Shown here piece after piece: positions 21,907 through 40,343 of a DNA stretch of 64,000 bases; the stretch's first letter is position 1, and every line of letters begins with the position of its first letter. Both the position numbers and the translations under genes were made by a program. The notes beneath the pieces are model-generated. The model was not told the origin of the DNA and did no database searches. It saw only the letters and a program-made list of their open reading frames with translations. This DNA comes from Olivibacter sitiensis DSM 17696 (GTDB taxonomy: Bacteria; Bacteroidota; Bacteroidia; Sphingobacteriales; Sphingobacteriaceae), in NCBI RefSeq assembly GCF_000427965.1, contig NZ_ATZA01000017.1:1-64000 (forward strand). Reading direction: 5' to 3'.

Positions 21907-22767
21907 TCAATATATCAGATCGGCCATGACCGGAAAGTGGTCTGAAGGGAACTTGCCGTGATAAGTATCGGTGAGCACTCCCCATTTTGTTACTTGAAAG
22001 TCCTTGGTTACAAAGACATGGTCTATGATATCATCGCTGGCCAGGGAACGCGCATTGCCAAAGCCGTTGAAGGAGGCATTTGGCTTGTACGGGTGTTTTG
22101 CCAATTTTTGCGTATCGAACAGCAAACCGGACTGTGCGATGGCTTGGTACCATGCCGTTTCTTCCGAGCCATTGAAATCGCCGGTAAGAAGGGTCGGATT
22201 GCCCTTGGCAATTTCCTTCACCTTCTGAAGTATGAGCTTGCTGCTCTCCTGCCTGGCTATTACACCTTGATGGTCATAGTGTACATTGAAAAAGTAAAAT
22301 TGCTTTTTAGTCAGCTTATCTTCCAGTTTTACCCAGGAGCAGATACGGTTGCAGCAAGTAGCGTCCCAACCCAAGCCAGGTTTTTCGGGTGTTTCGGAAA
22401 GCCAGAAATCTCCCTTATCAAGCAAAGAAAAGCGTTCTTTCTTGAAAAAGATGGCAGAATGTTCACCTGCTGATTTCCCGTCATCCCTACCTAGTCCATA
22501 ACGGTCATAAGTAGGTAGATAAGCGGATATATCATCCAATTGGTTTTTCAATGCCTCTTGGGTACCAAACACATCAAAATCATGAAAACGGATCAATTCG
22601 CTCACCGGCAATGCCCTGTCTTTCCAAAGGTTGCCCGTATCGGTCGTATTGGCGTATCGCAAATTAAAAGATGCCACACGTAGGCCTTGGGCATATCCTA
22701 CTAAATTCATAATGGAAAGCAAAAGCAGGATCAGACCTGCTTTTGCTTGGATTTCTATTTTTCTCAT
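21907..22767 (-). CDS. Exonuclease/endonuclease/phosphatase (EEP) family protein, exported
   Basis: A 286-residue protein with a signal peptide (ends near VGYAQG) and a complete EEP fold: RVASFNLRYAN, FGTQEAL (metal-binding Glu), HYDHQG, GDFNGSE and SDHFPV. The family cleaves phosphoester or phosphodiester bonds in nucleic acids, phosphoinositides or lipids. It starts 28 bp after the SusD gene and is the last gene of the SusC-SusD operon, so the imported ligand probably carries a phosphodiester. Its likely role is release of phosphate-bearing units outside the cytoplasm. Confidence 0.88.
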   Translation of the reverse strand: MRKIEIQAKAGLILLLLSIMNLVGYAQGLRVASFNLRYANTTDTGNLWKDRALPVSELIRFHDFDVFGTQEALKNQLDDISAYLPTYDRYGLGRDDGKSAGEHSAIFFKKERFSLLDKGDFWLSETPEKPGLGWDATCCNRICSWVKLEDKLTKKQFYFFNVHYDHQGVIARQESSKLILQKVKEIAKGNPTLLTGDFNGSEETAWYQAIAQSGLLFDTQKLAKHPYKPNASFNGFGNARSLASDDIIDHVFVTKDFQVTKWGVLTDTYHGKFPSDHFPVMADLIY

Positions 22768-22795: not shown

Positions 22796-24562
22796 CTACC
22801 ATCCAGGGTTTTGCTCTAAGTTATTATTTTTAGTGATAGCGGTGGCCGGTATAGGATAGTAATACTGACGGCCATCGGTATACCATGTCCTAGGCTGCGC
22901 CTTGAACCATTCCAAGTGCTTGTCGGCCGTAAGCGTTTGGAAATTGGTGCTGGGGCCGCCAATAGGCACGCGGGCTGTGCCAGATGGAACGGTAATGGTA
23001 GGTCCGCTGGTGCTTCCGTCATAGAAAACCACGTCGGTCGTGCCATTGTTGTCCAAGTCCACCAATTGGTTCAACGCTGGCACGTAGATACCCGTCCAAG
23101 GCAACTCGGCCATCAATTCGCCCAATTTCCAACGCTTCAAATCGTTGAAGCGAAAACCTTCCAAGGCCAGCTCCACTTGTCTTTCTCTTCTGATCTCCAA
23201 TAGTACGGGGTCTGATACATTAGGGAAGAATGTTTGTTGCAAATAGGTATCTGCTGTTGTAGGCAGATTATTAAGACCACCCGTTATACCCGATCTAGCC
23301 CTTAGAGCACCTATGGAAGCACTCCAATCGGCATCCGTCAAAGTTCCCAGTTCGGCCTTGGCTTCGGCAAAATTGAGCAATACCTCGGCATAGCGCATCA
23401 AAGGCAGGGCATTGGTATTGAGGCCAGAATTGTCATACTGGGGATCATCCAAAGCATATTTAATGGGCTGATAGCCCGTATAGGTATGGCTGGCGAAGTT
23501 GGGCACCGTAGTCACGCCATTTCGCTGGTATCCAGGTGTACGTATCAACTGGGCCAAGCGATGATCGCGTGCCTGGCATTCTTCGTAAAATGTTTCCGTG
23601 TTATAGCTCGACCTATCGGTATAAGGCGTGCCATCGATATTGAGGATGGTATTGATAAAAGGCCTTACCAAGCTGTAGCGGGGGCCATAAGTGGCCGATG
23701 TCCACCACCAATTGGCGTCGCCCAAAACCGCCAGGTCCTTGCTGGCCGCCACGGCCAGCATCACTTCCGTGGTGACGGGAGCATCGCTCACAAAGAGCTG
23801 CCTTTGTGACAATTCAACCCCTTGACCGGTATACAGGGAATACGGGCCATTCGCCATCAGCTCGGTAGCAGCGTCCACTACGTGCTGGTAAAAGGTATTG
23901 GCCGTGCCCTGTAGTCCCAGTTCATCGTGGTACTTCCTAAACGATGCCTCAAAAAGTGCCACACGCGTTTTCAGACCGAGGGCAGTCCACTTGTTAATGA
24001 GTGTACCATCCGTGCCGTTGTCGGTAATATTGGCGTAGGCAAAGTCTAGGTCCTCCATGACGCGGTCCATAATCACTGTGCGCGAGTCGCGACCGGCAAA
24101 CAAAACATCCGTATCCTCTATGCCCAAGGCCTGATCCACCCAGGGCACATCGCCAAAGCGTACAATCTTTTCGTAATAAAAATAGGCCCTGAAAAAACGA
24201 GCTATGCCCAAGAAGTTGTTTCTTGTTGTTTCACTTACCTGTGAGTTAGCGCAATTTTCTATAAAATGGTTGATATTACGCAACTGGGACCAGTCCCATC
24301 CGCTACTGGTCTCTGCGGTAAAAGCGCCATCGCGTATAAAGGTGTTTAAACTGTTGACAGCACCATAATCAGCCATGGCATCCAGTTGGTAGGCGTTGCT
24401 CACGGAAGGCAACGCATTGTAAAAGGAATAGCTATATGTGCGTAATCCACTCTCCGTACCGAAAATATCCTCTGGCGTAGCAGTGGCCTTTGGCAGCTCA
24501 TTGAGTTCGCATGAAGATAACGAAAACACAAGTAACGCCATAAAATACCCTATCTTTTTCAT
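22796..24562 (-). CDS. SusD/RagB family outer-membrane lipoprotein
   Basis: A 588-residue SusD homologue: lipobox LSSC, TPEDIFGTESGLRTYSYSFYNALP at the N terminus, the TPR-like central helices (FRAYFYYEKIVRFGDVPWVDQAL) and the typical C-terminal segment ERQVELALEGFRFNDLKRWKLG, then YYPIPATAITKNNNLEQNPGW. It forms the lid of the SusC transporter and binds the ligand. It lies 12 bp downstream of SusC, hence one operon with it and the EEP gene. Confidence 0.95.
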   Translation of the reverse strand: MKKIGYFMALLVFSLSSCELNELPKATATPEDIFGTESGLRTYSYSFYNALPSVSNAYQLDAMADYGAVNSLNTFIRDGAFTAETSSGWDWSQLRNINHFIENCANSQVSETTRNNFLGIARFFRAYFYYEKIVRFGDVPWVDQALGIEDTDVLFAGRDSRTVIMDRVMEDLDFAYANITDNGTDGTLINKWTALGLKTRVALFEASFRKYHDELGLQGTANTFYQHVVDAATELMANGPYSLYTGQGVELSQRQLFVSDAPVTTEVMLAVAASKDLAVLGDANWWWTSATYGPRYSLVRPFINTILNIDGTPYTDRSSYNTETFYEECQARDHRLAQLIRTPGYQRNGVTTVPNFASHTYTGYQPIKYALDDPQYDNSGLNTNALPLMRYAEVLLNFAEAKAELGTLTDADWSASIGALRARSGITGGLNNLPTTADTYLQQTFFPNVSDPVLLEIRRERQVELALEGFRFNDLKRWKLGELMAELPWTGIYVPALNQLVDLDNNGTTDVVFYDGSTSGPTITVPSGTARVPIGGPSTNFQTLTADKHLEWFKAQPRTWYTDGRQYYYPIPATAITKNNNLEQNPGW

Positions 24563-24574
24563 TTATTGTTGCAT

Positions 24575-27500
24575 TTAAAAGTTTAACATAAGATTGAAAC
24601 TGACACTTCGCATGGTAGGATAATTGAAACCTTGCCCCGAACCAGTACCTATATCAGGATCCGAAGAACCGATATTGGCTACATCGATGTCTCGCGTATG
24701 CTTGTACAAGGGCGACCAGGTCCAGAGATTTTCGCCCGTAAGCCCCACCCTGATGTTCTGCATACCGAACTTGGAGACAAATCGCTGCGGCAGGTTATAA
24801 CCAACTTGAAGGTTCCTCAACCGGATATAGGCCACGTTTTGCAAATAACGTGTCTGTACGGTTTCCTTAAAGGAGGTGTTGTACCCCGCGTATCTTGGAA
24901 GATAGGCATCCCGATTGTCTTCTGTCCAGTAATTATCCAAATGCCAAGTAGGCAAATTATTATATGGACGGTTATATTGTCCCCAGAAAATAGCTTCATT
25001 GCCAGGGTACCAGTCCTGCTTGCCTACACCTTGAAAAAACGCGCTTAGGAAAAATCCACTGTAGCTGGCATTCAAATTGAAGTTATAGATGTAGCGAGGG
25101 TCTGAATTGCCAATGATGGTTTTATCGCCATGATCGGACAGGGTATTAGCCCCATAATCTATCACGCCGTTGCCATCCAGATCGGCAAACCGAATATCTC
25201 CCGGATATACTTGCCCGGAGTTGGATGATTTGATCAATGTTTGTGACGGTGCACCATCGATTTCTTCCTGAGACTGGAACAGCCCTTGCGTCACATAGCC
25301 CCATATCTCGCCCACGCGTTGGCCAGCGTAGTAGTCTGTCAGAACGCCCGTACTGTTATTATATTTGTCTATGGTAGAACGGTAATCGGCCAAGCCTACC
25401 TTCACGCCAAAACCAAAGGGCTTGCCGTTCAAATCAAAACGATCATTGTACGAAAGCGAAATTTCAAAGCCTTTGGTAGTCATATCGGCGTAGTTTCCTT
25501 TGGGAGAAGCTGCGCCGAAGACATCCGGAAGCGTTTGCCCCACGGTGTACATATCCAACGTCTTACGCGTGTACAAATCACCAGTGAAGGTCAGCTTGTT
25601 ATTCAAAGCCGAGATATCCAAACCGATGTTGGCCGTACGTGCTGTTTCCCAGGTAAGATTGTCCGGAATAACGGCCGGGGCGCTGGTCAAGGGATTTCGC
25701 TGTCCATTTAGAACCCGCCCGGAAGTGGAAATGGAATAGGTATCCAGGAAGGTGTAAGGATCTATATTTCCGTTACCGAGTGATCCGTAAGATGCCCTTA
25801 TTTTCAAATCGGAAATGGCATTCGGACTGACGTTCCAGAAAGACTCCTGCGAGATACGCCACCCCAAAGAGGCCGAAGGAAAAAATGCCCACTGCTCGTT
25901 GGTAGGAAACTTGGAAGAGCCATCGTAACGTCCGTTCAGCTCAAACAAATAACGATCTTTATAGATGTAATTTGCGCGGAAAAACACACCCGCAATTCGG
26001 TACTTGTTGTATCCCGCTGTAGCGGTGACAGATTCACCCAATGCCAAGTTGATATTTTCGGTATTTTCCGTAAGCAATCCGTTCTTTGTAATATAGGTGG
26101 AGTTATAAGTCCTTTGCTCGTAATTGTACCCTATCAAACCTTTAAAATAATGATCCTCCTTAAAGGTCTTTTCGTAGTCGGCATACAGATTGGCAAAGAG
26201 ATACCTATATTTTTGAGACACTTCGTAGATGTTGTCGTTCAAGGATGTCTCCAACATAAGGATTTCACCTTCGTTGATGCTATACGGTACGGGGACCCTT
26301 ATCCTTGTAGAGGAGAAATCGCGATTCCTAAAGGTCAAATCGCCACGCACATGAAAGGCATTGTCGAAAAACCTGGTTTCAAATGAAGAGGTATTCCTCA
26401 AGTTGGCATTTTCGGAGTCAACCCCATTCTTGCCATAGATGAAATCGCCTACGGTATAAGCTGCTGAATAAGAGAAAGAGCCATCTGGATTAAATATCGG
26501 TGAGGAAGGGTGTCCTTCATCGGCTATATTCCGCCAGATATTTCCTCCTTCGCCAGCTGTCTGCGGATCGTGGTATTTGATGGACGAATAATCCATGTTA
26601 TTGTTTAGGGTAAGCCAATCCGTGACCTGCAAGCCACCCTTGGCGCGCATATTATAGCTCTTGTATTGATCTGTATTGTAGCGGTAAATACCTCCATAGT
26701 CGTAAAGGCGGCCCGAAAGATAAAAATCCGCCTTATCCGTGGTACCACTTACGGAAAGGTTGTGATCCTGTGCCCATGCCTGGTCTTTCAGCAATACCTT
26801 ATAGTAGTCTTCGTTGCCATAGTACACATATTCCCCATTTTCATTTACCGTAATTTCCTCGGTTATACCCTGTTCTTTGCGCCTTCTGAATTCTTCCAGC
26901 CAATCCAGGGTAAACATTTGGGTCTTGTTTAACCTAGCAGGAACGGAAGAATAGTTATTCCAAGCATTATAGGCTTCATAAAAACGTTCAGCATACGTGT
27001 AACCATCCGTTACAAAATCGGGTCTTGTACTCTGTTTCTGCAAGGAAGTATTACCAGAGTAGGTAAAAGAGGTTTTCCCCTGTGCCGCTTTCTTGGTGGT
27101 AATCAATATCACACCGAAAGTTCCCCTGGAACCATATACGGCAGCCGAAGATGCATCTTTCAGCACGGAGACCGATTCAATATCACTTGGATTGAGCGCT
27201 CCCGGATCGCCCTCCACCCCATCTATCAAAACCAGGGCACTGCCTCCCTGACCGATGGAAGTAGTTCCGCGAACATTATAGCTCGGGTTGCGCGTAGGCT
27301 TGCCATCGGCAAGGTCGATATTCAGGTTGGGTACTACGCCAGCGAGCATCTGCGTGGCATTAGCAGCCACACGCCCTTCAAACACCTCGGGCCCCACTTG
27401 GTCTACCGCTCCAGTCAAGTTGACCTTCTTCTGTGTGCCGTATCCCACGACGACCACCTCACTCAATGTGCCCAAAGCTTCTTTCAGCGCAATATGAACC

Positions 27501-28090
27501 GTAGTGCTTTGCGCCTCCTCGACCGAAACGTTTGATTTGCGTTGCATCTCGAAAGAAACATAGCTTACTTCTATGGTATATATCCCTTTGGGAAGCGACA
27601 AGCTATATGCTCCATCCTGATCCGTACTTGTCGTGCGATTGAGCTCCACCACCTTTACGCTGGCACCTATCAAAGGGGCTCCCTTTTCGTCGGTAACAGT
27701 TCCTTCCAGACGCCCCGATTGCTGCGGTGGGTGATAGGTCACAATAATGTTTTTTCCCTCCTGCTCGTAAGTTGTAAATGTGTTTTGAGCTATTTTCTTC
27801 AATATGTCGTATAAACTTCCCTCCATTCGGACTGATATCCGTTGGTTTTCGGGTATGGTATTGTCACTGTATACAAAACGGTAATCGCATTTTCCTTCGA
27901 TATCCTTAAACACCTGTTTCAGTGTCTTATCTTGGATGTTTACCTTGATAGTCGTTGCATGAAGTGACTGTGCTTCCAAGGAATGGGCTTGAATAATGGT
28001 GAAGCCGAGCATTATACACCCTAGGATGAGCGAACTGTATTTCATGGTCATAAAAATGTAGTTGTAAAGAAACGGTACATTCTTTTTCAT
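24575..28090 (-). CDS. SusC/RagA TonB-linked transporter with STN domain
   Basis: A 1171-residue transporter when started at the ATG at 28090 (MKKNVPFLYNY); an open frame reaches 28174 but the extra residues are not leader-like. After the signal segment comes an STN domain (about 40-90, NIQDKTLKQVFKDIEGKCDYRF), a carboxypeptidase-like repeat (RLEGTVTDEKGAPLIGASV), the VVVVGYGTQKK TonB-box region, plug and barrel ending in MLNF. STN domains pass a ligand signal to a FecR anti-sigma factor, and a FecR and ECF sigma gene lie directly upstream, so the transporter most likely controls its own synthesis. The ligand is unknown but likely phosphorylated (see neighbours). Confidence 0.95.
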   Translation of the reverse strand: MKKNVPFLYNYIFMTMKYSSLILGCIMLGFTIIQAHSLEAQSLHATTIKVNIQDKTLKQVFKDIEGKCDYRFVYSDNTIPENQRISVRMEGSLYDILKKIAQNTFTTYEQEGKNIIVTYHPPQQSGRLEGTVTDEKGAPLIGASVKVVELNRTTSTDQDGAYSLSLPKGIYTIEVSYVSFEMQRKSNVSVEEAQSTTVHIALKEALGTLSEVVVVGYGTQKKVNLTGAVDQVGPEVFEGRVAANATQMLAGVVPNLNIDLADGKPTRNPSYNVRGTTSIGQGGSALVLIDGVEGDPGALNPSDIESVSVLKDASSAAVYGSRGTFGVILITTKKAAQGKTSFTYSGNTSLQKQSTRPDFVTDGYTYAERFYEAYNAWNNYSSVPARLNKTQMFTLDWLEEFRRRKEQGITEEITVNENGEYVYYGNEDYYKVLLKDQAWAQDHNLSVSGTTDKADFYLSGRLYDYGGIYRYNTDQYKSYNMRAKGGLQVTDWLTLNNNMDYSSIKYHDPQTAGEGGNIWRNIADEGHPSSPIFNPDGSFSYSAAYTVGDFIYGKNGVDSENANLRNTSSFETRFFDNAFHVRGDLTFRNRDFSSTRIRVPVPYSINEGEILMLETSLNDNIYEVSQKYRYLFANLYADYEKTFKEDHYFKGLIGYNYEQRTYNSTYITKNGLLTENTENINLALGESVTATAGYNKYRIAGVFFRANYIYKDRYLFELNGRYDGSSKFPTNEQWAFFPSASLGWRISQESFWNVSPNAISDLKIRASYGSLGNGNIDPYTFLDTYSISTSGRVLNGQRNPLTSAPAVIPDNLTWETARTANIGLDISALNNKLTFTGDLYTRKTLDMYTVGQTLPDVFGAASPKGNYADMTTKGFEISLSYNDRFDLNGKPFGFGVKVGLADYRSTIDKYNNSTGVLTDYYAGQRVGEIWGYVTQGLFQSQEEIDGAPSQTLIKSSNSGQVYPGDIRFADLDGNGVIDYGANTLSDHGDKTIIGNSDPRYIYNFNLNASYSGFFLSAFFQGVGKQDWYPGNEAIFWGQYNRPYNNLPTWHLDNYWTEDNRDAYLPRYAGYNTSFKETVQTRYLQNVAYIRLRNLQVGYNLPQRFVSKFGMQNIRVGLTGENLWTWSPLYKHTRDIDVANIGSSDPDIGTGSGQGFNYPTMRSVSFNLMLNF

Positions 28091-28283
28091 TATTTTTGAA
28101 CGTTTTTGATGAGTTGAACAATCACTTGTTAAAACCATGATGCCTACTAAGTTGTCCAGACCGCGTGGCATCAAAACTTTTGGGGGCTTTTGGCACTATG
28201 CCGAAGGCCCTTTTCGCTGATTATTGACGCTATGTTTTCTTCATTTTGATATGCTTTATTTTTTTACCCCTATTTTGAATAAA

Positions 28284-29291
28284 CTATTCTATATAAATAT
28301 TCTTTCCTTCTATGCGATATGAAAAATGATGGCCTTTTTTGAGCAAATCCAGCACCCTATTGACGGATAGATTATCAAAAGAGCCAGTAAACCGAAAGCT
28401 TTTTGTCTTGCTGTCAGAAAAATGCACCTTCACATCGTACCACCGCTCCAAGATAAGGGCCACTTGACCAAACGACTTGGAGTCAAAGGCCAATACTTCA
28501 TTGCGCCAAATACCCCAAGCATCCAACTTTCCAATGGTGCGGACAGCTATTTTGCCTGCTGCTTTGTGGTATATCATTTTCTGCCCTGGCTTCAAAGTAG
28601 CAAATAGCGACTCATCACTTACCGATTCATCGAGCTTTCCCACCCTTAAAGCTCCCGACTCCAATGCCACTGCCACCTCACTGTCCTCTTCAAATGCCCT
28701 GAAATTAAACGAGGTACCCAATACGTGTGCGTATATCCCCTGCCCTTCTACTATAAAAGGCAGGTTCTTATCGGTTGACACCTCAAAATAGGCCTCGCCT
28801 GTCAGCTTTACTTTCCGATTCTTGCGACTGAAATCATCGGTATATTCCAGTGTGCTCCCCGCATTGAGGAATATGATAGTACCATCGGCCATGCGGAGTG
28901 TTTTCTTCTGTCCATAGGCCGTATGAACCTCATGGCGCGCAGGCACGTTTGCAACTTCCGGTACTTCCTTTGATCCTTGTTGCCAAAAAAAAGGGATGAG
29001 GAGACATAGCAGCAGGAAGCAGGCAACAGATAGCCAAGGCCATGTATAGGTATTGCGCTTCGGTTTGGGGTGCACCTTTTCCAGTACCCTTTCGATACGA
29101 AGCCTGCTTTGCTCGTCACTGGATTTACCTTTATCATATTCGGTATTTTCCCATTCTTGCAAAAACCGTTTCTCCAGTTCCGTACGGTTATCTGGACTAT
29201 CCATAAGCAAATGGAGCTCTTTCTTTTCGGCATCGCTCAGATTTCCTTCCAGGTACTTTCCAACGAGTTCGCTCAGTCTTGATGTTTTCAT
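28284..29291 (-). CDS. FecR-like anti-sigma factor
   Basis: A 335-residue FecR family protein from ATG 29291 (a GTG lies one codon before). A cytoplasmic N-terminal sigma-binding part (1-83, with ELVGKYLEGNLSDAEKKEL) is followed by one transmembrane helix (about 86-104), a periplasmic FecR domain (VHTAYGQKKTLRMADGTIIFLNAGSTLEY, then LTGEAYFEV, FIVEGQGIYAHVLGTSFN) and a C-terminal STN-like domain (VALILERWYDVKVHF, FRFTGSFDNLSVNRVLDLL). It receives the signal of the downstream SusC and releases the ECF sigma factor encoded 112 bp upstream. The spacer between these genes holds three in-phase GGTTAA repeats. Confidence 0.93.
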   Translation of the reverse strand: MKTSRLSELVGKYLEGNLSDAEKKELHLLMDSPDNRTELEKRFLQEWENTEYDKGKSSDEQSRLRIERVLEKVHPKPKRNTYTWPWLSVACFLLLCLLIPFFWQQGSKEVPEVANVPARHEVHTAYGQKKTLRMADGTIIFLNAGSTLEYTDDFSRKNRKVKLTGEAYFEVSTDKNLPFIVEGQGIYAHVLGTSFNFRAFEEDSEVAVALESGALRVGKLDESVSDESLFATLKPGQKMIYHKAAGKIAVRTIGKLDAWGIWRNEVLAFDSKSFGQVALILERWYDVKVHFSDSKTKSFRFTGSFDNLSVNRVLDLLKKGHHFSYRIEGKNIYIE

Positions 29292-29346
29292 CACCTATAT
29301 GACCGAGCAGGTCTCGCCCACGGGCTATCCGATCGAATGAACATTA

Positions 29347-29391
29347 GGTTAATATTGGGTTAAGAAAAGGTTAAGCGCCAAATAGGGTTAA
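29347..29391. promoter_or_regulatory. Triple 11-bp-spaced GGTTAA repeat upstream of fecR-like gene
   Basis: GGTTAA (plus strand) starts at 29347, 29358 and 29369, exactly 11 bp apart, and again out of phase at 29386. On the minus strand these read TTAACC. The 11-bp period is that of PhoB/OmpR-type direct repeats. No clear -7 element follows on either strand. Confidence 0.55.
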
Positions 29392-29403: not shown

Positions 29404-29988
29404 TTACAAAAATAGCATGATAATGAAGGCGTAGGCATGTTCGGAAAGCATTTTCCTCAGCATGGCGTAAGATTTCTTTAGCTGGTTCTTCACGGTATGG
29501 GTCGAAATGTTCAGCGAAGCCCCTATTTCATCATTGGTGAGCCCCTGTTCTTTCTTTAGTAGAAAAACCTCCTTGCAACGTGGGGGCAAGTGTTCCACGT
29601 AAACGCCCACCAGTCGCTGCAAGTCCTTCTGCATAATCACCTCATCGCCATCTTCATGCCACTCATGTTCTTGCGCGTAGTGCGCCTCCCGGATTTGACG
29701 AGCCAAGGATTCCTGCAAACTGTTCAACGCTCTGTTCTTGCTGGTGGTGTATAACCATGCCGACATAGACTCAACGTCTTGCATCTTTTCCTTTTGCTCC
29801 CATATCTTGACGAATATGTCTTGCGTTATCTCCTCCGCCAGCTGTTCATTTTTCACCCACCGAAGAATGAAGTGATATACCTTCGCTTCGTATTTCTCCA
29901 TCAACTCCTCAAGCGCTCGGACATCGCCAGCGGCTAATTTCGTCAACAATAATTTATCCGAATGACTTCTCCCCGTTACGACATACAT
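29404..29988 (-). CDS. ECF RNA polymerase sigma factor (FecI-like)
   Basis: A 194-residue ECF sigma factor. Region 2 (about 20-95) includes YHFILRWVKNEQLAEEITQDIFVKIWEQK and SAWLYTTSKNRALNSL; region 4 (about 130-180) includes LPPRCKEVFLLKKEQGLTNDEIGASLNISTHTVKNQLKKS. It forms a sigma/anti-sigma pair with the FecR-like protein downstream and probably drives the SusC-SusD-EEP operon. Its own promoter carries the double 11-bp half site found at three other promoters in this region (30011-30045), so synthesis of the sigma factor itself may answer to a PhoB-like regulator. Confidence 0.95.
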   Translation of the reverse strand: MYVVTGRSHSDKLLLTKLAAGDVRALEELMEKYEAKVYHFILRWVKNEQLAEEITQDIFVKIWEQKEKMQDVESMSAWLYTTSKNRALNSLQESLARQIREAHYAQEHEWHEDGDEVIMQKDLQRLVGVYVEHLPPRCKEVFLLKKEQGLTNDEIGASLNISTHTVKNQLKKSYAMLRKMLSEHAYAFIIMLFL

Positions 29989-30010: not shown

Positions 30011-30045
30011 CAAATCTACGAAGTCAATATTACCTCAATGTTACG
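30011..30045 (-). promoter_or_regulatory. Pho-box-like promoter of the ECF sigma gene
   Basis: Read on the minus strand: half site CGTAAC (30045-30040), 5 nt, half site GGTAAT (30034-30029), exactly 10 nt, then -7 element TAGATTTG (30018-30011). The 11-nt units GTAACATTGAG and GTAATATTGAC agree at 9 of 11 positions. Confidence 0.7.
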
Positions 30046-30098
30046 AATGAAAAATGGCTGCGTCCATATTCATATCAATCTGGTTACATAAAGTCAGA

Positions 30099-30133
30099 TT
30101 TAACATAGGGTTAACAGCGCAAAGCTAACTTTG
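30099..30133 (+). promoter_or_regulatory. Pho-box-like promoter of the nucleotide pyrophosphatase gene
   Basis: Half site TTTAAC (30099-30104), 5 nt, half site GTTAAC (30110-30115), exactly 10 nt, then -7 element TAACTTTG (30126-30133), 30 nt ahead of the ATG. Confidence 0.72.
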
Positions 30134-30163
30134 CAGAGATTAGTAGTATAAACTAAATTCAAC

Positions 30164-31465
30164 ATGAAAAAAATTGCGTCCTTACTCTTATTGTGCCTGT
30201 GGATATTTAATGTAAACGCGCAGGAACAGAAACATGTCATCCTAGTGACCATTGATGGTTTTCGCCCGGATTTTTACCTGGAAGACAAATGGAATACGCC
30301 CCACCTAAAAGAAATACTCAAAGAAGGCGTCCATGCATATGGGGTCAACAGCGTATTTCCTTCGGTAACCTATCCATCACACACCACGATAGTCACCGGC
30401 GTGCAGCCTGCCGAGCATGGTATCACCTCCAATGCCGTCTTTGAACCCGATAGTAGTACGGGAAAGATATACTGGAATTTCAACGAGATCACCTCACCCA
30501 CCATTTGGGGAGCGGCAAAGGAAAAGGGCATGACGGTAGCCTCCATGTTATGGCCAGTGTCGGCTGAAGCGCCAGCAATAGATATCAACATTTCGGATAT
30601 CGGAAGCATGGGCGAGGCAGTGCGTGACAAATATGCCACACCTCAGGGAATTACCGATAGCATCAAAGGATTGCTTTTTCCAAATGATAAGGTCAAATGG
30701 GGAGAAGACGAGTATAATGCCCCCGCCTCTGCCTGGGTAATACGTCAGTACAAACCCCAGCTCATGACCATACACCTCATTTCGGTAGACCATGCAGAAC
30801 ATACCGTGGGGCGTGAAGGTCAGATGGTAGCCGACGCGATACATGAAGCCGACAAGGGTATAGGATTGATTCGCGAGGCAATCAGGGAGGCAGGCATGGC
30901 AGACAACACCCTGCTCATCGTCACGGGCGATCACGGTTTCTACGACGTTACCCATCAGGTGAATCCCAATGTATGGCTGGCAAAGGCTGGATTGCTCAAC
31001 CCAGAGAAACAGGACGACTGGAAAGCACGCTTTTTTCCAGTAGGCGGCTCGGCCTTCCTCTTTCTACGCGACGAGCAGGACAAAAAGACCAAACAACAAG
31101 TATTAAACCTCTTGAAATCCCTTCCTAATGAAGAGAAAGGCTATTTCAGGATCATAGACGAAAAGCAAATGAAGAAAATCGGAGCCAATCCCCATGCGGC
31201 CTTTGGTCTTTCGGGACTGGAAGGTGCGGCCTTTGGCAATGCCTCCACGGGCGATGCCATTCGCGAAGGCAAGGGGGGCACCCACGGCTATTTCCCCGAT
31301 ACACGCAACATACAGACTGGTTTTCTGGCCGTCGCTCCCAATATAAAGAAAGGTGTGGAGATTAGGGATATGGACTTGAGAGATGTGACCGTGTTTGTAA
31401 AAGAATACCTGGACCTCCATCTACCATCAGCCAAAGGCAGGTCGTCCAAGAAATATTTTGAATAG
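30164..31465 (+). CDS. Nucleotide pyrophosphatase/phosphodiesterase (NPP), exported
   Basis: A 433-residue member of the alkaline phosphatase superfamily, NPP branch. After the signal peptide (1-20) come VILVTIDGFRPDFY with the metal ligand Asp31, the nucleophile region FPSVTYPSHTTIVTG with Thr69, LISVDHAEH (metal ligands), and TGDHGFYDVTH with the remaining Asp/His ligands. These enzymes split phosphodiester or pyrophosphate bonds in nucleotides or lipid head groups outside the cytoplasm. It is divergent from the ECF sigma gene, and both promoters carry the same half-site pair, so they are probably induced together, plausibly on phosphate shortage. Confidence 0.93.
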   Translation: MKKIASLLLLCLWIFNVNAQEQKHVILVTIDGFRPDFYLEDKWNTPHLKEILKEGVHAYGVNSVFPSVTYPSHTTIVTGVQPAEHGITSNAVFEPDSSTGKIYWNFNEITSPTIWGAAKEKGMTVASMLWPVSAEAPAIDINISDIGSMGEAVRDKYATPQGITDSIKGLLFPNDKVKWGEDEYNAPASAWVIRQYKPQLMTIHLISVDHAEHTVGREGQMVADAIHEADKGIGLIREAIREAGMADNTLLIVTGDHGFYDVTHQVNPNVWLAKAGLLNPEKQDDWKARFFPVGGSAFLFLRDEQDKKTKQQVLNLLKSLPNEEKGYFRIIDEKQMKKIGANPHAAFGLSGLEGAAFGNASTGDAIREGKGGTHGYFPDTRNIQTGFLAVAPNIKKGVEIRDMDLRDVTVFVKEYLDLHLPSAKGRSSKKYFE

Positions 31466-31491
31466 CTTCCATCACCTTCTTTTTGATTAAG

Positions 31492-31537
31492 AACTTCACC
31501 AAAGTCGCACGCCAGGCAGCGGCGCAGTGGTGAAGTT
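31492..31537. terminator. Bidirectional terminator between convergent phosphoesterase genes
   Basis: Stem AACTTCACC / GGTGAAGTT enclosing a GC-rich inner sequence, with T-rich ends on both strands. It separates the NPP gene and the metallophosphoesterase gene. Confidence 0.75.
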
Positions 31538-31544
31538 TTCTTAC

Positions 31545-32687
31545 TTAATAGAACTTCAACATGCGTGGTTGGCCCATTCGCAAAGGCATCACAAACCGTT
31601 CGAACAGAGTGGCCGATACCGTATCGTCCTCTGCAGCTTCTGGCGCTATGGTATAATAGGCACCAGTCAGGAACAAGCCATTCTTACCTTTTTCTAGTGT
31701 CAGGTTCATAAAGCCATAGCGATCGTCACAGTAATTCTCGAGATGCACCGTCTCGAGAACAGGCCAATGGCTCGACACGGCAGGATCGTCCTGCATAGCT
31801 ACCGAATGCAAGCCATCATAGCCCCCGGCACCAGCTACGATATAGGGCACCACTGTTCCATCCTCATATCTTTTGGAAAATCGTTGGTAATTGTGTACAT
31901 GGCCGCTAAGCACCAAGTCAGGCTTCACCCCGGTACGCTCAAAGGCCCGCTCCAGCATCACGATCATCTCTGCACTTGATCCGTGATTGGTATCGGCCGA
32001 ATACGGTGCATGGTGCAGGCACACGATCAGTGCCTTGCTCTCCCGCTCGGCCTGGCACCACAGCAGTTCCTGCTCGAACCACTCCTCCTGTTCTTTAGAT
32101 ATCCAACCATATTTGGTAACATTGGGGTAAAGCCCAATGAAATTCGCCAATGGTGTCTCCAATGTCCAATAGACATTCGGCTGGATCATGCTCTTGCGCC
32201 TGCTTCCGCCCGAAAAGGAGATATCACGCCTTTCGGAATCGCAAAAAACATCCATAAAAGCATCCAAACTCTGGTACATAACATCGCTATCGGGGTTGAT
32301 ATCTGCATCGTGATTACCCGCAAGGGCGAAAATAGCGCCCGGATAATGCTCATAGGGCCGAAAAAACTGCCTAGCATATTCGCTCGCTTCTCCATGGTCG
32401 TACACGATGTCGCCCAAGTGGTATAGAAATGCGCTCTGGTCAGCCTGAACCTGTTTGGATATCTCGCGCGACACAATAGACTGAAAACGGGACGGCCTAA
32501 GACTTCCCGTATCGCCAATAACGTGAAAAACCATCCGCTCGGCCATATCAATCCCAGCACGTGGCAATATACGTTCGATGGGCAGGTGGTATGGCCAGTT
32601 ACCAACAGGCTGTGGCTCAAATTGCAAACGATGCGAATCGTCTATCTTTTGGTTCAAGAAAATAGGCTTTCTATATTTATTTCCCAT
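31545..32687 (-). CDS. Calcineurin-type metallophosphoesterase, purple acid phosphatase-like
   Basis: Five blocks of the metallophosphoesterase fold are visible: HVIGDTGSLR, YHLGDIVYDHGE, ALAGNHDADI, CLHHAPYS and LSGHVHNYQRF; the last resembles purple acid phosphatases. The open frame begins at 32741, but there the codon lies inside the promoter half-site; the ATG at 32687 (MGNKYRKPIFL), 35 nt after the -7 element, is the likely start, giving 380 residues. No classical signal peptide is visible from that start, so the location is uncertain. Probable role: hydrolysis of phosphomonoesters or diesters. Confidence 0.88.
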   Translation of the reverse strand: MGNKYRKPIFLNQKIDDSHRLQFEPQPVGNWPYHLPIERILPRAGIDMAERMVFHVIGDTGSLRPSRFQSIVSREISKQVQADQSAFLYHLGDIVYDHGEASEYARQFFRPYEHYPGAIFALAGNHDADINPDSDVMYQSLDAFMDVFCDSERRDISFSGGSRRKSMIQPNVYWTLETPLANFIGLYPNVTKYGWISKEQEEWFEQELLWCQAERESKALIVCLHHAPYSADTNHGSSAEMIVMLERAFERTGVKPDLVLSGHVHNYQRFSKRYEDGTVVPYIVAGAGGYDGLHSVAMQDDPAVSSHWPVLETVHLENYCDDRYGFMNLTLEKGKNGLFLTGAYYTIAPEAAEDDTVSATLFERFVMPLRMGQPRMLKFY

Positions 32688-32721
32688 AACGAAGCAGGAA
32701 TGCTTTTGTGCATTCTTGGCA

Positions 32722-32756
32722 TAAAGGTAAGGTACCATCATTAACTTGATGTTAAA
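32722..32756 (-). promoter_or_regulatory. Pho-box-like promoter of the metallophosphoesterase gene
   Basis: Read on the minus strand: TTTAAC (32756-32751), 5 nt, GTTAAT (32745-32740), exactly 10 nt, then TACCTTTA (32729-32722; one mismatch to TAnnTTTG). This geometry places the transcription start near 32715 and decides for the ATG at 32687. Confidence 0.7.
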
Positions 32757-32843
32757 TTGTCCTTATGTTATAGTTCATGACGATAAGGTGATATTCGGGT
32801 CCAAATAGTAGCAACAAATAGCATAACGATTGCCACACAATAA

Positions 32844-32878
32844 CTTAACTTTCTGGTAATAAACAAACTATATTTTTG
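32844..32878 (+). promoter_or_regulatory. Pho-box-like promoter of the olsF-like gene
   Basis: CTTAAC (32844-32849), 5 nt, GGTAAT (32855-32860), exactly 10 nt, then -7 element TATTTTTG (32871-32878), 35 nt ahead of the ATG at 32914. Confidence 0.68.
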
Positions 32879-32913: not shown

Positions 32914-34650
32914 ATGGATCAAGAAATCATCAATCAGAGGAAATTCTCACAAGCCATAGGAACCCGTGGCCGACACATGGCCGGCATCAATAACCTGTTG
33001 ATGCATATTATGAAACTGCACAAGCTAAACCGGGAATTTAAAAAGGTGCAGCACATGCAGGGCACGGCATTCATGGACGGAGTGCTGCGCTTGTTGAAAG
33101 TTGATGTTGATGTTGATGAAACCATGCTACACAACATACCGAAAGAAGGTGCGTTTATCGTCCTTGCCAATCATCCATATGGCGGCATAGACGGTCTTAT
33201 CTTGCTTAGACTGATCAGCGCGATCAGACCAGATGTAAAGCTTATGGCCAATTTCCTGCTGAAAAACATCAGCCAATTGGACGATTGCCTCATAGCAGTA
33301 GATCCTTTTGAAACCAAAGGAAGCAGTAAGAACATCTTGGGTATAAAACAGGTAGTAAACAGCCTCCAATGTGGGCACCCTGTCATCATCTTTCCCGCGG
33401 GAGAAGTTTCCGCGTTTCACCTATCCAAGAAACGCATCACTGACGGGCCGTGGCACCCCGTAGTCGGCAAGCTCATTGCCAAAGTAAAAGTACCTATCCT
33501 GCCCGTGTACTTTCAAGGAAATAACAGCCTATTGTTCAACTTGATGGGCATGGTCCACCCCATGCTACGGACAGCAAGACTCCCCGCAGAACTGTTCAAC
33601 AAGTCGGGTCATCGCGTACCTATCCATATCGGCCATCTTCAACCCTATGAAGATATCCCATTCCACGGCAATCCTGAGAAAATGCTAATTTACCTGAGGG
33701 CCTATACCTACTCTCTGGCCATGGGACTTGGATACGACAAGAAGAAATTAATCCCAATCCCTTACTTCAGAAAAGAACAGCAAGCCATCGCGCCTCCCGT
33801 GCCACAGATGGCGTTGGAAGAAAACATATCCAAAATAAGCGAATTTCAACTACTGAAAAGCGGTAAATACGAGCTATACCTGGCGCCTGCGCAAGTACTT
33901 CCACAAATCATGCAAGAAATAGGCCGACTGCGGGAAATAACCTACAGAGATGTGGGCGAGGGCACAAACAAAGCGACCGATACGGACCTATTTGATGTGT
34001 ACTACCTCCACCTTTTTCTCTGGGACAAGGAGGCACGATGCATCGTAGGGGCGTACCGCATGGGAAAAGGTAAGGAACTGTTCCATATATTGGGCAAACG
34101 TGGCTTCTATATCTCACAGCTTTTCAAGTTAGGCAAGGGGTTCATGCCCATACTGCAGCACGGCCTAGAGCTTGGACGGAGCTGGGTACGAAAAGAATAC
34201 CAACGGCAGGCCCTTCCCCTATACCTGTTATGGAAAGGCATATTACAACATCTTAAACAGCACCCAGAGTACGAATTTTTGATCGGTCCGGTCAGTATCA
34301 GTAAGCAATATTCGGAATTTTCGAGATGTCTCATCGTCGACTATATCCGCTTACATCATTTTGATGAAGAATTGGCAAAAAGTGTCAAGGCAAAGAAAAA
34401 ATTCAAGCCCAAGCTTACCGAAATCGGGGGACATGCCCTATTGGACAAAACGGCCTCTATCCGATTTTTGGATAAGCTGATCGCGCTCAATGAAAGTGGG
34501 GGCCTGCGGTTTCCGGTTTTGCTAAAGCGATACCTGGAACTGAATGCAACCATCGTTGGCTTCAACATAGACCCCAAGTTTGAGGACTGCTTGGACGGAC
34601 TGATGGTGCTCCAGTTGAAGAACCTTCCCTTGCATGCTTTCAACAGATAA
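32914..34650 (+). CDS. olsF: Bifunctional aminolipid (ornithine/glycine lipid) synthase, OlsF-like
   Basis: A 578-residue protein with two domains. N-terminal part (about 40-290): lysophospholipid acyltransferase-like, with ANHPYGGIDG (His87) and IIFPAGEVSAF near 160. C-terminal part (about 330-530): GNAT-like OlsB/hemolysin-type N-acyltransferase, with LREITYRDVGEGTNKATDTD and CIVGAYRMGKGKE. The order O-acyltransferase then N-acyltransferase is that of OlsF, the fused ornithine-lipid synthase known in Flavobacterium and Serratia. The product would be a phosphorus-free membrane lipid with an amino-acid head group. The promoter has the same half-site pair as the phosphatase genes, which suits induction under phosphate shortage. 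The head group (ornithine, glycine or other) cannot be told from sequence. Confidence 0.85.
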   Translation: MDQEIINQRKFSQAIGTRGRHMAGINNLLMHIMKLHKLNREFKKVQHMQGTAFMDGVLRLLKVDVDVDETMLHNIPKEGAFIVLANHPYGGIDGLILLRLISAIRPDVKLMANFLLKNISQLDDCLIAVDPFETKGSSKNILGIKQVVNSLQCGHPVIIFPAGEVSAFHLSKKRITDGPWHPVVGKLIAKVKVPILPVYFQGNNSLLFNLMGMVHPMLRTARLPAELFNKSGHRVPIHIGHLQPYEDIPFHGNPEKMLIYLRAYTYSLAMGLGYDKKKLIPIPYFRKEQQAIAPPVPQMALEENISKISEFQLLKSGKYELYLAPAQVLPQIMQEIGRLREITYRDVGEGTNKATDTDLFDVYYLHLFLWDKEARCIVGAYRMGKGKELFHILGKRGFYISQLFKLGKGFMPILQHGLELGRSWVRKEYQRQALPLYLLWKGILQHLKQHPEYEFLIGPVSISKQYSEFSRCLIVDYIRLHHFDEELAKSVKAKKKFKPKLTEIGGHALLDKTASIRFLDKLIALNESGGLRFPVLLKRYLELNATIVGFNIDPKFEDCLDGLMVLQLKNLPLHAFNR

Positions 34651-39411: not shown

Positions 39412-39428
39412 ATTAATACTTTGTTAAT
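39412..39428. promoter_or_regulatory. Partial 11-bp-spaced half-site pair between divergent phosphoesterase genes
   Basis: ATTAAT (39412-39417) and GTTAAT (39423-39428) are 11 bp apart, as in the four full Pho-box-like promoters, but no good -7 element lies 10 nt from it on either strand. The -7 element used by the plus-strand gene is further on (39471). Confidence 0.35.
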
Positions 39429-39470
39429 ACACACTTCATAATGGACACTTACCTTCGGGCAATAATGATT

Positions 39471-39478
39471 TAAATTTG
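39471..39478 (+). promoter_or_regulatory. -7 promoter element of the PlcP/LpxH-like gene
   Basis: TAAATTTG, exact match to TAnnTTTG, only 8 nt ahead of the ATG at 39486, so the mRNA leader would be nearly absent. Confidence 0.5.
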
Positions 39479-39485
39479 ATTTCGA

Positions 39486-40343
39486 ATGAAAAGGGAAGTC
39501 GATTTGGTAGTAATTTCGGATATTCACCTGGGAACTTATGGTTGCCGCGCCAACGAATTGCTACAATATCTCAAGAGCATTCGCCCCAAGCGAATCATCC
39601 TTAATGGAGATATCATAGACATCTGGCAGTTCAGCAAATCCTACTGGCCGGAGTCGCATACCAAGGTCTTGCGTAGGATTATGAAATTTGTCACCGAAGG
39701 TGTCTCCGTCCATTACCTGACCGGCAATCACGATGAAACGCTACGAAAGTTTAGTGATCTCCAACTAGGCAACTTCCAATTGTCCGACAAGCTGGTGCTG
39801 ACTTTGGGAAATGCCAAGGCTTGGTTCTTTCATGGCGACATATTCGACGTGACCATGCAGCATAGCAAGTGGTTGACCAAATTGGGTGCCATAGGGTACG
39901 ATTCCTTGATCCTGCTCAACAGTTTTGTAAACCGCTGTCTTACTTTTATGGGCAGGGAAAAAATGAGTTTTTCCAAAAAAGTGAAGTCCAAATTCAAAAA
40001 CGCCGTCAAATTCATCAATGACTTTGAATATACGGCTGCCGAATTGGCTGTCGAGAAGGGGTATGATTATGTAGTATGCGGGCACATTCACCAACCCGAA
40101 AAGCGGAACATCAGCACAGGAAAAGGAGAAGTATTATACCTCAACTCCGGCGATTGGGTGGAGAACATGACCGCACTGGAATACAACAAAGGGCAATGGG
40201 ATGTCTATACCTATTCTGCCTCACATTACGATGACCTGACATCAAAAGAAATCGACTTGCTTGATGCGGAAGATTTGAGCCTCAGACTGGACGTCAAAAT
40301 CCTACTGGCGCAAATGAAAGCTGAGGTAATAGTAGGTCAATAA
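39486..40343 (+). CDS. PlcP/LpxH-like metallophosphoesterase
   Basis: A 285-residue calcineurin-like enzyme: LVVISDIHLGTYGCRANELLQYL, ILNGDIIDIW, YLTGNHDE, WFFHGDIFD, and VVCGHIHQPEK. The first block (SDIHLGTxGC) and the KSYWPESHTKVLRRIMK helix are closer to the alphaproteobacterial PlcP phospholipase C, which removes phosphate head groups during phosphate shortage, than to enterobacterial LpxH. Both families are annotated as UDP-diacylglucosamine hydrolases, so LpxH function in lipid A synthesis is the alternative. Position next to OlsF-like, glycosyltransferase and exonuclease-phosphatase genes favours lipid remodelling. Confidence 0.88.
   Translation: MKREVDLVVISDIHLGTYGCRANELLQYLKSIRPKRIILNGDIIDIWQFSKSYWPESHTKVLRRIMKFVTEGVSVHYLTGNHDETLRKFSDLQLGNFQLSDKLVLTLGNAKAWFFHGDIFDVTMQHSKWLTKLGAIGYDSLILLNSFVNRCLTFMGREKMSFSKKVKSKFKNAVKFINDFEYTAAELAVEKGYDYVVCGHIHQPEKRNISTGKGEVLYLNSGDWVENMTALEYNKGQWDVYTYSASHYDDLTSKEIDLLDAEDLSLRLDVKILLAQMKAEVIVGQ

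Follow-up and report, generated by a model that had tools for sequence, protein, structure and literature searches.

Four promoters in a 64,000-nucleotide (nt) stretch of Olivibacter sitiensis DSM 17696 (contig NZ_ATZA01000017.1, positions 1 to 64,000; hereafter the window) share one arrangement of two direct half sites and a −7 element. We consider it highly likely, from the sequence comparisons below, that they are a Bacteroidota variant of the Pho-box promoter, and that they head a phosphate-utilization and lipid-remodeling locus in which the regulator PhoB would stand above a switch formed by an extracytoplasmic-function (ECF) sigma factor and FecR. The sites precede genes for the ECF sigma factor, a nucleotide pyrophosphatase (NPP), a metallophosphoesterase, and an OlsF-like lipid synthase. 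An earlier note on this DNA had described the layout as half site, five free bases (N5), half site, ten free bases (N10) and −7 element, and had proposed that a PhoB-like regulator governs the four genes as one regulon; all four sites were found where it had placed them (Table 1), and the single regulon is supported, with olsF its less certain member.

A recurrent promoter element and its chance level

A search of the whole O. sitiensis genome (5,053,571 bases in 110 contigs; G000 in our handles, in which C and L numbers denote contigs and loci and the window opens contig C19) returned five exact matches to the pattern, four of them the window sites, and none to the pattern read backwards. The fifth lies upstream of a second SusC–SusD pair (named by eye), which is followed by a DUF218 gene. 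With up to two mismatches allowed, the window holds five matches against a mean of 0.11 and a maximum of 1 in 100 dinucleotide shuffles, the pattern used having been fitted to the four window sites themselves. Spacers and flanks differ among the four sites, which makes recent copying of one promoter unlikely.

A description of the element from other genomes was obtained at DUF47-Pit loci. Judging by the nearest named PhoB and AlaS matches (72–76% identity), the genome falls in a family that includes Parapedobacter and Olivibacter, both assigned by NCBI to Sphingobacteriaceae. In this family there are 63 DUF47 matches in 61 genomes, O. sitiensis included, and loci were examined for 30 of the 63. 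A Pit (phosphate permease) gene is present in each of these loci, and all 30 DUF47 promoters hold the box at zero, one, or two mismatches, mostly 15–24 nt upstream of the called start; 1200 shuffles never came below three mismatches. The consensus of the Pit promoters is TTAACATTAACTTAACATTG, six free bases, and TAnnTTTG. A matrix built from the 29 non-O. sitiensis sites, its register set by the best match to the earlier note's pattern, placed the ECF sigma, NPP, metallophosphoesterase, and olsF sites first to fourth in the window (22.3, 17.4, 16.9, and 11.3 bits); the best score in 30 mononucleotide-shuffled windows was 14.5 and the highest fourth-best 9.5. The same consensus emerged when a motif was found de novo in the DUF47-Pit promoters of these 29 genomes, with the pattern left unused, and under this second motif the four sites ranked first, second, third, and sixth (23.0, 20.5, 17.0, and 9.4; best in shuffled windows 18.3, median best 10.3, highest fourth-best 8.7).

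A third model was built from 38 sites in Pit and pst promoters outside O. sitiensis, located with the earlier note's pattern; nine were pst sites, picked by eye from 15 that passed a three-mismatch filter (L227, L230, L232, L234, L235, and L240 were omitted). Under this model the ECF sigma site ranked first in the window, the NPP site third, the olsF site fourth in a shifted register, and the metallophosphoesterase site fifth, second place being taken by a TTAAC array in the gap between the ECF sigma and FecR genes. Judged by these ranks, three of the four are prominent and the olsF site, taken singly, is weak. Applied to the whole O. sitiensis genome, the 38-site model listed 22 matches at E ≤ 10 (150 of 2293 candidates scored), among which Pit ranked first, the ECF sigma gene second, ppk1 fourth, NPP sixth, phoB ninth, olsF 16th, pst 17th, a TonB receptor 19th, and a pafA-like phosphatase gene 22nd (partial); the array in the ECF–FecR gap was also listed.

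The element at phosphate genes of other genomes and its candidate regulator

The earlier note had proposed as a check that matches across the genome should fall at pst, phoB, phoU-like, and phosphatase genes, and the outcome is positive. In O. sitiensis the box or a relaxed form of it lies upstream of pstSCAB, DUF47-Pit, ppk1, phoB (a relaxed array), and a metallophosphoesterase–GDPD unit; it also precedes a TonB receptor and the second SusCD pair, both presumably linked to phosphorus. Of the 23 O. sitiensis matches with up to two mismatches, 17 were inspected for their gene context (all but L014, L016, L018, L019, L021, and L023). In 60 relatives, the exact N10 pattern gave 30 matches against 8 for controls. 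Eight of the 30 lie at DUF47/Pit genes, four at ECF sigma genes (with FecR by Pfam in three), five at TonB-receptor or SusC-like genes (by Pfam for three), one at an S1/P1 nuclease, three at exported proteins of another or no family (two beside TonB receptors), and nine at other or no genes or in contexts left unread. At one locus (L202) a boxed SusC gene is accompanied by a one-mismatch box upstream of a purple-acid-phosphatase-like gene. As a separate observation, DUF218 genes go with box-led SusCD clusters in two genomes (L037:1605-7674 and L196:12123-13265) and may encode a new phosphorus-related enzyme.

The pair of half sites also recurs at pst and phoB. An exact 11-bp pair lies within 230 bp of pstS in 18 of 27 type-1 pstSCAB promoters (29 of 1350 in shuffles), several of which have three or four units in phase. 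Types 1 and 2 were separated by eye, and L216 and L253, in which no pstS open reading frame (ORF) was present, were excluded. The type-2 pst operon was rejected as a Pho target, the pair being found in 0 of 12, and serves as a negative control; several promoters of type-2 pst-like operons (L242-L252, L049) share a different element, roughly TGTCTACCAATTTTGTATATATTTG. Among records whose titles name Bacteroidota groups, 26 of 52 have the 11-bp pair upstream of phoB (67 of 2600 in shuffles), as does 1 of 24 other records (12 of 1200 in shuffles), these others including one Ignavibacteriaceae, one Kapabacteria, and two unnamed records. Four of the 80 phoB records (L341, L359, L363, and L407) were dropped for want of upstream DNA.

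The distance between the second half site and the −7 element is N10 in 23 of the 30 family Pit promoters. Pit promoters of other families have the pair in 16 of 43 cases, with N20–21 in 8 of these 16, and the 26 paired phoB promoters show N21–22 in nine and N31–33 in four. The spacings step by one helical turn (~11 nt). The N10 layout described in the earlier note is therefore a trait of the family; elsewhere the box is displaced outwards by one turn (N21) or by two (N32). Across the class, TTAAC-N6-TTAAC-N20–22-TAnnTTTG gave 148 matches (summed from our table) against 16 for the control, in 108 of 296 genomes; phoB, Pit, and porin O/P are Pho targets among these matches, and the class-wide pattern mixes at least two regulons. 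The element thus has the marks of a Pho box: 11-bp direct repeats, a distance of ~10 bp or whole turns more from a core promoter element, and a position upstream of pst, phoB, and phosphate-transport genes (18/27 type-1 pst, 26/52 phoB, 30/30 DUF47-Pit).

Among the ten Trans_reg_C matches in the O. sitiensis genome, the best PhoB candidate is the regulator of L050. With the PhoBs of L297 and L302, whose own promoters bear the repeat, it shares 58% identity, and the next best of the nine O. sitiensis regulators compared reaches at most 36% identity to these PhoBs. The repeat is very probably the landing site of PhoB in this group of Bacteroidota. In L331 the box, phoB, phoR, a SixA-like gene (by eye), a small ORF, and ppk1 follow one another on one strand. 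The kinase gene just upstream of the O. sitiensis DUF47-Pit box is 39% identical over 231 residues to the PhoR of L331, and 29 of the 30 family DUF47-Pit loci have such a PhoR-like kinase gene at this position. This PhoR-like gene lies away from phoB in O. sitiensis, beside DUF47-Pit; at L050:4619-6052, phoB is followed by a gene for a 233-residue protein with GAF and HisKA-like domains and no ATPase domain (by eye). Autoregulation of the other OmpR-type regulators was rejected, as the pair was found at none of the eight others examined (of the ten Trans_reg_C matches). At the kinase gene adjoining the L055 regulator, however, the pair is present.

Points against the interpretation, and rival explanations

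Several results weigh against PhoB control of the four promoters. Genome-wide, the pattern relaxed to two mismatches finds 23 matches against 28 for the reversed control; because this count does not exceed the control, the relaxed pattern alone proves nothing, and we rejected these counts as evidence. The O. sitiensis pst box is two mismatches off the pattern, and an exact pair is missing from 9 of the 27 type-1 pst promoters and from 27 of the 43 DUF47 promoters outside the family. In the class beyond the family, matches to the exact N10 pattern (16) do not outnumber those to the control (21), because N10 is the family form of a wider operator. For about half of the 22 listed genome matches no link to phosphorus is evident, and the list (150 of 2293 candidates scored) lacks the metallophosphoesterase site. 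The olsF site taken alone falls inside the shuffled-window range under the de novo motif, and the box was rejected as a general trait of olsF, 26 of 30 orthologue loci being without it. The L050 regulator scores below the NCBIfam PhoB cut-offs (TIGR02154, 221.6 of 296.2; NF053854, 213.2 of 270), so its orthology is drawn from its identity to box-carrying PhoBs; the PhoR candidate also scores below its NCBIfam cut-off. Lastly, at least one further regulon of the class also makes use of TTAAC direct repeats.

One may postulate that the promoters are indeed Pho-controlled but that the ECF–FecR–SusCD system imports an ordinary glycan or other ligand, in which case the locus would not be one for phosphate utilization. 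SusCD systems mostly serve glycans (PMC8115612, in the passages available), the substrate is unreadable from sequence, and the sole enzyme gene beside SusD belongs to the endonuclease/exonuclease/phosphatase family. We nevertheless regard this scenario as unlikely. The NPP and metallophosphoesterase genes lie beside the cluster under the same box, giving the arrangement of a phosphate-utilization (PUS) cluster, a SusCD pair next to phosphoesterase genes (SusC, SusD, Exo_endo_phos, Phosphodiest, and Metallophos). Box-led ECF–SusCD clusters of three other genomes include a metallophosphoesterase (L197), a GDPD (L198), and a DUF218 gene (L196). Moreover, according to passages of PMC8115612, PusCD clusters of Flavobacterium johnsoniae bring together ECF sigma or FecR, SusCD, and phosphoesterase genes, as in O. 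sitiensis, with a gene content and order that differ from the O. sitiensis locus; their ECF sigma, FecR, and PusCD genes, as well as PlcP, rise under inorganic phosphate (Pi) depletion.

The main rival to PhoB itself is another regulator of the OmpR family, RprY or the PhoP of Riemerella anatipestifer, binding TTTAACA repeats, with the link to phosphate being indirect. Passages of PMC9603813 describe Riemerella PhoP as an OmpR-type regulator, in the same phylum, with a TTTAAC half site, a TTTAACA motif from DNA affinity purification sequencing, and in vitro binding to a moxR promoter; the O. sitiensis genome itself has ten Trans_reg_C matches. In addition, many N22 matches of the class-wide pattern, often with A before the second TTAAC, lie upstream of MoxR-like, peptidase, and surface or periplasmic-protein genes rather than phosphate genes (by eye, 30 loci); these N22 loci (L283-L308, MoxR-like for example in L295 and L296) may form a second OmpR-type regulon, possibly that of Riemerella PhoP. 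Since the TTAAC half site is common to at least two regulons, it is flank, spacing, and target that distinguish them, and in all three the N22 class differs from the sites considered here: the window sites are N10 and precede phosphorus-related genes, not N22 sites at moxR-like or envelope genes. The target set of Riemerella PhoP is very broad and includes moxR, and the words "pst" and "phosphatase" are absent from the main text of PMC9603813. By contrast, the N10 class stands at every DUF47-Pit locus examined, the pair stands at pst and at half of the Bacteroidota phoB promoters, and a PhoR-like gene adjoins a box; another OmpR-type regulator therefore appears quite unlikely to us.

That the likeness marks no regulator site at all, and comes from AT-rich promoter composition with a degenerate −33 element or from one promoter copied to its neighbors, is scarcely credible: two pairs of the sites are divergent neighbors, relaxed matches are as common as in controls, and the olsF site alone is not outstanding, but this reading is opposed by the five exact matches against none, the 30 of 30 at another gene, the positional steps of ~11 nt, and the differing spacers and flanks.

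With PhoB retained as the predicted regulator, the element can be compared with known systems. In Escherichia coli, the PhoB box consists of two 11-nt direct repeats with a CTGTCAT core (PMC4415409 and PMC1906773, available passages), and the likeness lies in an 11-bp repeat placed 10 nt ahead of the downstream promoter element; the core here is TTAACA, and because CTGTCAT is absent we did not file the box as the E. coli type. The cyanobacterial SphR box (CTTAACCT, 8-bp units with 3-bp linkers; passages of PMC1906773) has the TTAAC core, the 11-bp period, and the tandem units in common with it, and both occur upstream of pst, phosphatase, and nuclease genes. SphR belongs to another phylum and works with a sigma-70 −10 element, whereas the O. 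sitiensis box has the −7 element TAnnTTTG; in boxes of the O. sitiensis type, two units are often enough and the phase to the −7 is strict. Within the Bacteroidota, PhoB of Bacteroides fragilis shifts a pstC promoter fragment, and in a phoB mutant pst genes are 103- to 542-fold down and a phosphate/sulphate permease gene 52-fold down, PhoB thus controlling pst and this permease gene there; the passages of PMC3547664 give no box sequence, and "consensus" and "binding site" are absent from its main text. The words "promoter", "motif", and "Pho box" are likewise absent from the main text of PMC8115612, and the tie to the F. johnsoniae and B. fragilis experiments is one of gene type, not of their own promoters. 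For plcP clusters in marine bacteria, Pho boxes have been predicted in PMC4796936, with no sequence in the passages available.

The predicted regulon and the genes of the locus

The mechanism we propose, comprising binding, phosphorylation, induction, and an ECF cascade, is a model built on what was computed here: which motif recurs and at what spacing, at which phosphate genes of the various genomes it stands, and which genes are candidates for PhoB and PhoR. The operator would be two (elsewhere up to four) TTAACA-n5 direct repeats of 11-bp period, the last ending 10 nt before TAnnTTTG. When phosphate is scarce, PhoR, predicted to be the product of the gene beside DUF47-Pit, would phosphorylate PhoB, which would bind the repeats head-to-tail and recruit RNA polymerase. 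PhoB would then directly turn on the NPP, the metallophosphoesterase, and, less certainly, the OlsF lipid synthase. It would also turn on the ECF sigma gene, after which the FecR partner and the TonB transporter would gate the SusCD uptake operon. The earlier note's claim that the ECF/SusCD system belongs to the regulon needs a qualification: it is the ECF sigma gene that has the box, so control of SusCD would be at one remove. The locus would thus be a PUS-like cluster joined to membrane-lipid remodeling.

A wider proposal can be made only tentatively, and we regard it as possible rather than probable: a single Bacteroidota PhoB box (TTAACA-n5) would act only at ~10, 21, or 32 nt from TAnnTTTG, one family having moved the box a full turn inwards at Pit promoters, and PhoB would also command ECF sigma/FecR switches (a two-key uptake of organophosphate that needs phosphate hunger and a ligand at the transporter), a hunger-only extra aminolipid synthase (OlsF), and a small RNA.

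How Bacteroidota respond to phosphate hunger has been described in transcriptomes and proteomes. Also already known, as far as the passages cited above go, are 11-bp repeats 10 nt from the core promoter (E. coli), the TTAAC core (SphR), and PhoB-dependent pst (B. fragilis). In our searches of open-access papers we found none that spells out a Bacteroidota Pho operator; as far as these searches show, what is new is how the operator is spelled and phased, and that it stands at ECF sigma and olsF genes. Once spelling and phase are available, Pho regulons could be read from soil, sea, and gut Bacteroidota genomes, including genes switched on at phosphate exhaustion, and SusCD loci that scavenge phosphate could be separated from those for glycans. 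Direct tests of the proposed ECF-under-PhoB cascade and hunger-only lipid synthase also come within reach.

The gene calls of the earlier note are backed by Pfam (Table 1). For the fused acyltransferase the best NCBIfam model is OlsF (419.8 bits over residues 16-572, below the cut-off of 620). The box, at up to two mismatches, was found in 4 of the 30 best olsF orthologues examined, O. sitiensis included, and the three orthologues from a genus we label g4 have it at the same place with one or two mismatches. The four boxed genomes (G000, G028, G045, and G057) are those of the 30 with a separate GlsA/GlsB-like pair, G036 and G054 having a broken second half-copy instead; this coincidence (4/4 against 0/26) would arise once in 27,405 if the genomes were independent, which they are not, as they come from two genera. 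In O. sitiensis the split GlsA/GlsB-like pair (G000:C41:37463-38972) has no box, and it is the fused OlsF that is boxed. No OlsF match was found in the three genus mates of O. sitiensis searched. These patterns suggest that the fused OlsF became a hunger-only aminolipid synthase where another synthase already existed.

Table 1 Features of the window discussed in the text.
Feature	Coordinates	Strand	Spelling or basis
Candidate Pho-type box and promoter, ECF sigma gene	30011..30045	minus	CGTAAC-N5-GGTAAT-N10-TAGATTTG
Candidate Pho-type box and promoter, NPP gene	30099..30133	plus	TTTAAC-N5-GTTAAC-N10-TAACTTTG
Candidate Pho-type box and promoter, metallophosphoesterase gene	32722..32756	minus	TTTAAC-N5-GTTAAT-N10-TACCTTTA
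Candidate Pho-type box and promoter, olsF gene	32844..32878	plus	CTTAAC-N5-GGTAAT-N10-TATTTTTG; weakest of the four
Tentative relaxed three-unit array upstream of plcP-like gene	39413..39457	plus	TTAAT-N6-TTAAT-N6-TTCAT-N10-TACCTTCG
Three in-phase TTAAC units in ECF–FecR gap, in the direction of fecR	29348..29374	minus	11-bp period; no good −7 seen; function uncertain
ECF sigma factor (Sigma70_r2, Sigma70_r4_2)	29404..29988	minus	Pfam
FecR-type anti-sigma factor	28284..29294	minus	Pfam
SusC-like TonB-dependent transporter	24575..28174	minus	Pfam; weak N-terminal FecR_C match, under cut-off
SusD-like lipoprotein	22796..24562	minus	Pfam
Endonuclease/exonuclease/phosphatase-family enzyme (Exo_endo_phos), adjoining SusD on the same strand	21907..22767	minus	Pfam
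Type I phosphodiesterase/nucleotide pyrophosphatase (NPP; Phosphodiest)	30164..31465	plus	Pfam
Calcineurin-like metallophosphoesterase (Metallophos)	31545..32741 as called	minus	Pfam
OlsF-like fused bifunctional acyltransferase (predicted phosphorus-free aminolipid synthase)	32914..34650	plus	Pfam, NCBIfam
plcP-like/LpxH-like metallophosphoesterase (PF12850)	39486..40343	plus	Pfam

Because the promoter box overlaps the first codons of the called metallophosphoesterase ORF, the real start is probably the ATG at 32687 and not the called 32741. The plcP-like gene belongs to PF12850, which is also the Pfam family given for F. johnsoniae PlcP, a Pi-induced protein (passages of PMC8115612). The earlier note had set the −7 element at 39471 apart as lacking a pair, a statement we would revise, since a relaxed three-unit array was found at 39413-39439; a −7 at 39471 would give the plcP-like gene almost no leader, and TACCTTCG was used instead. 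This array ranks fifth in the window with the pattern-located Pit matrix and falls outside the top ten with the de novo motif, for which reason we treat it as tentative.

Elsewhere in the O. sitiensis genome, a strong box at L413:1501-1690 (G000:C34 ~118097-118290) stands N32 from TATCTTTG and is followed by ~120 nt and a strong intrinsic terminator. On that strand no ORF in the ~120-nt stretch reaches 30 codons, and a 14-codon ORF lies inside; the fold is better than that of shuffles (z −2.9), mostly by way of the terminator, and the predicted transcript is a candidate small RNA under PhoB control. Rfam gave no match for L413, and searches with Rfam and for tRNAs found nothing in two boxed stretches that lack a clear gene downstream. 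At L416 (G000:C30:28968), a TTAAC pair lies ~N32 from TACCTTTG at an Oar-like outer-membrane beta-barrel gene (by eye). At L045:2781-9259, the near-boxed metallophosphoesterase–GDPD unit follows glpD-, glpK-, and glpF-like genes (by eye), an arrangement that we read as glycerophosphodiester use joined to the Pho response.

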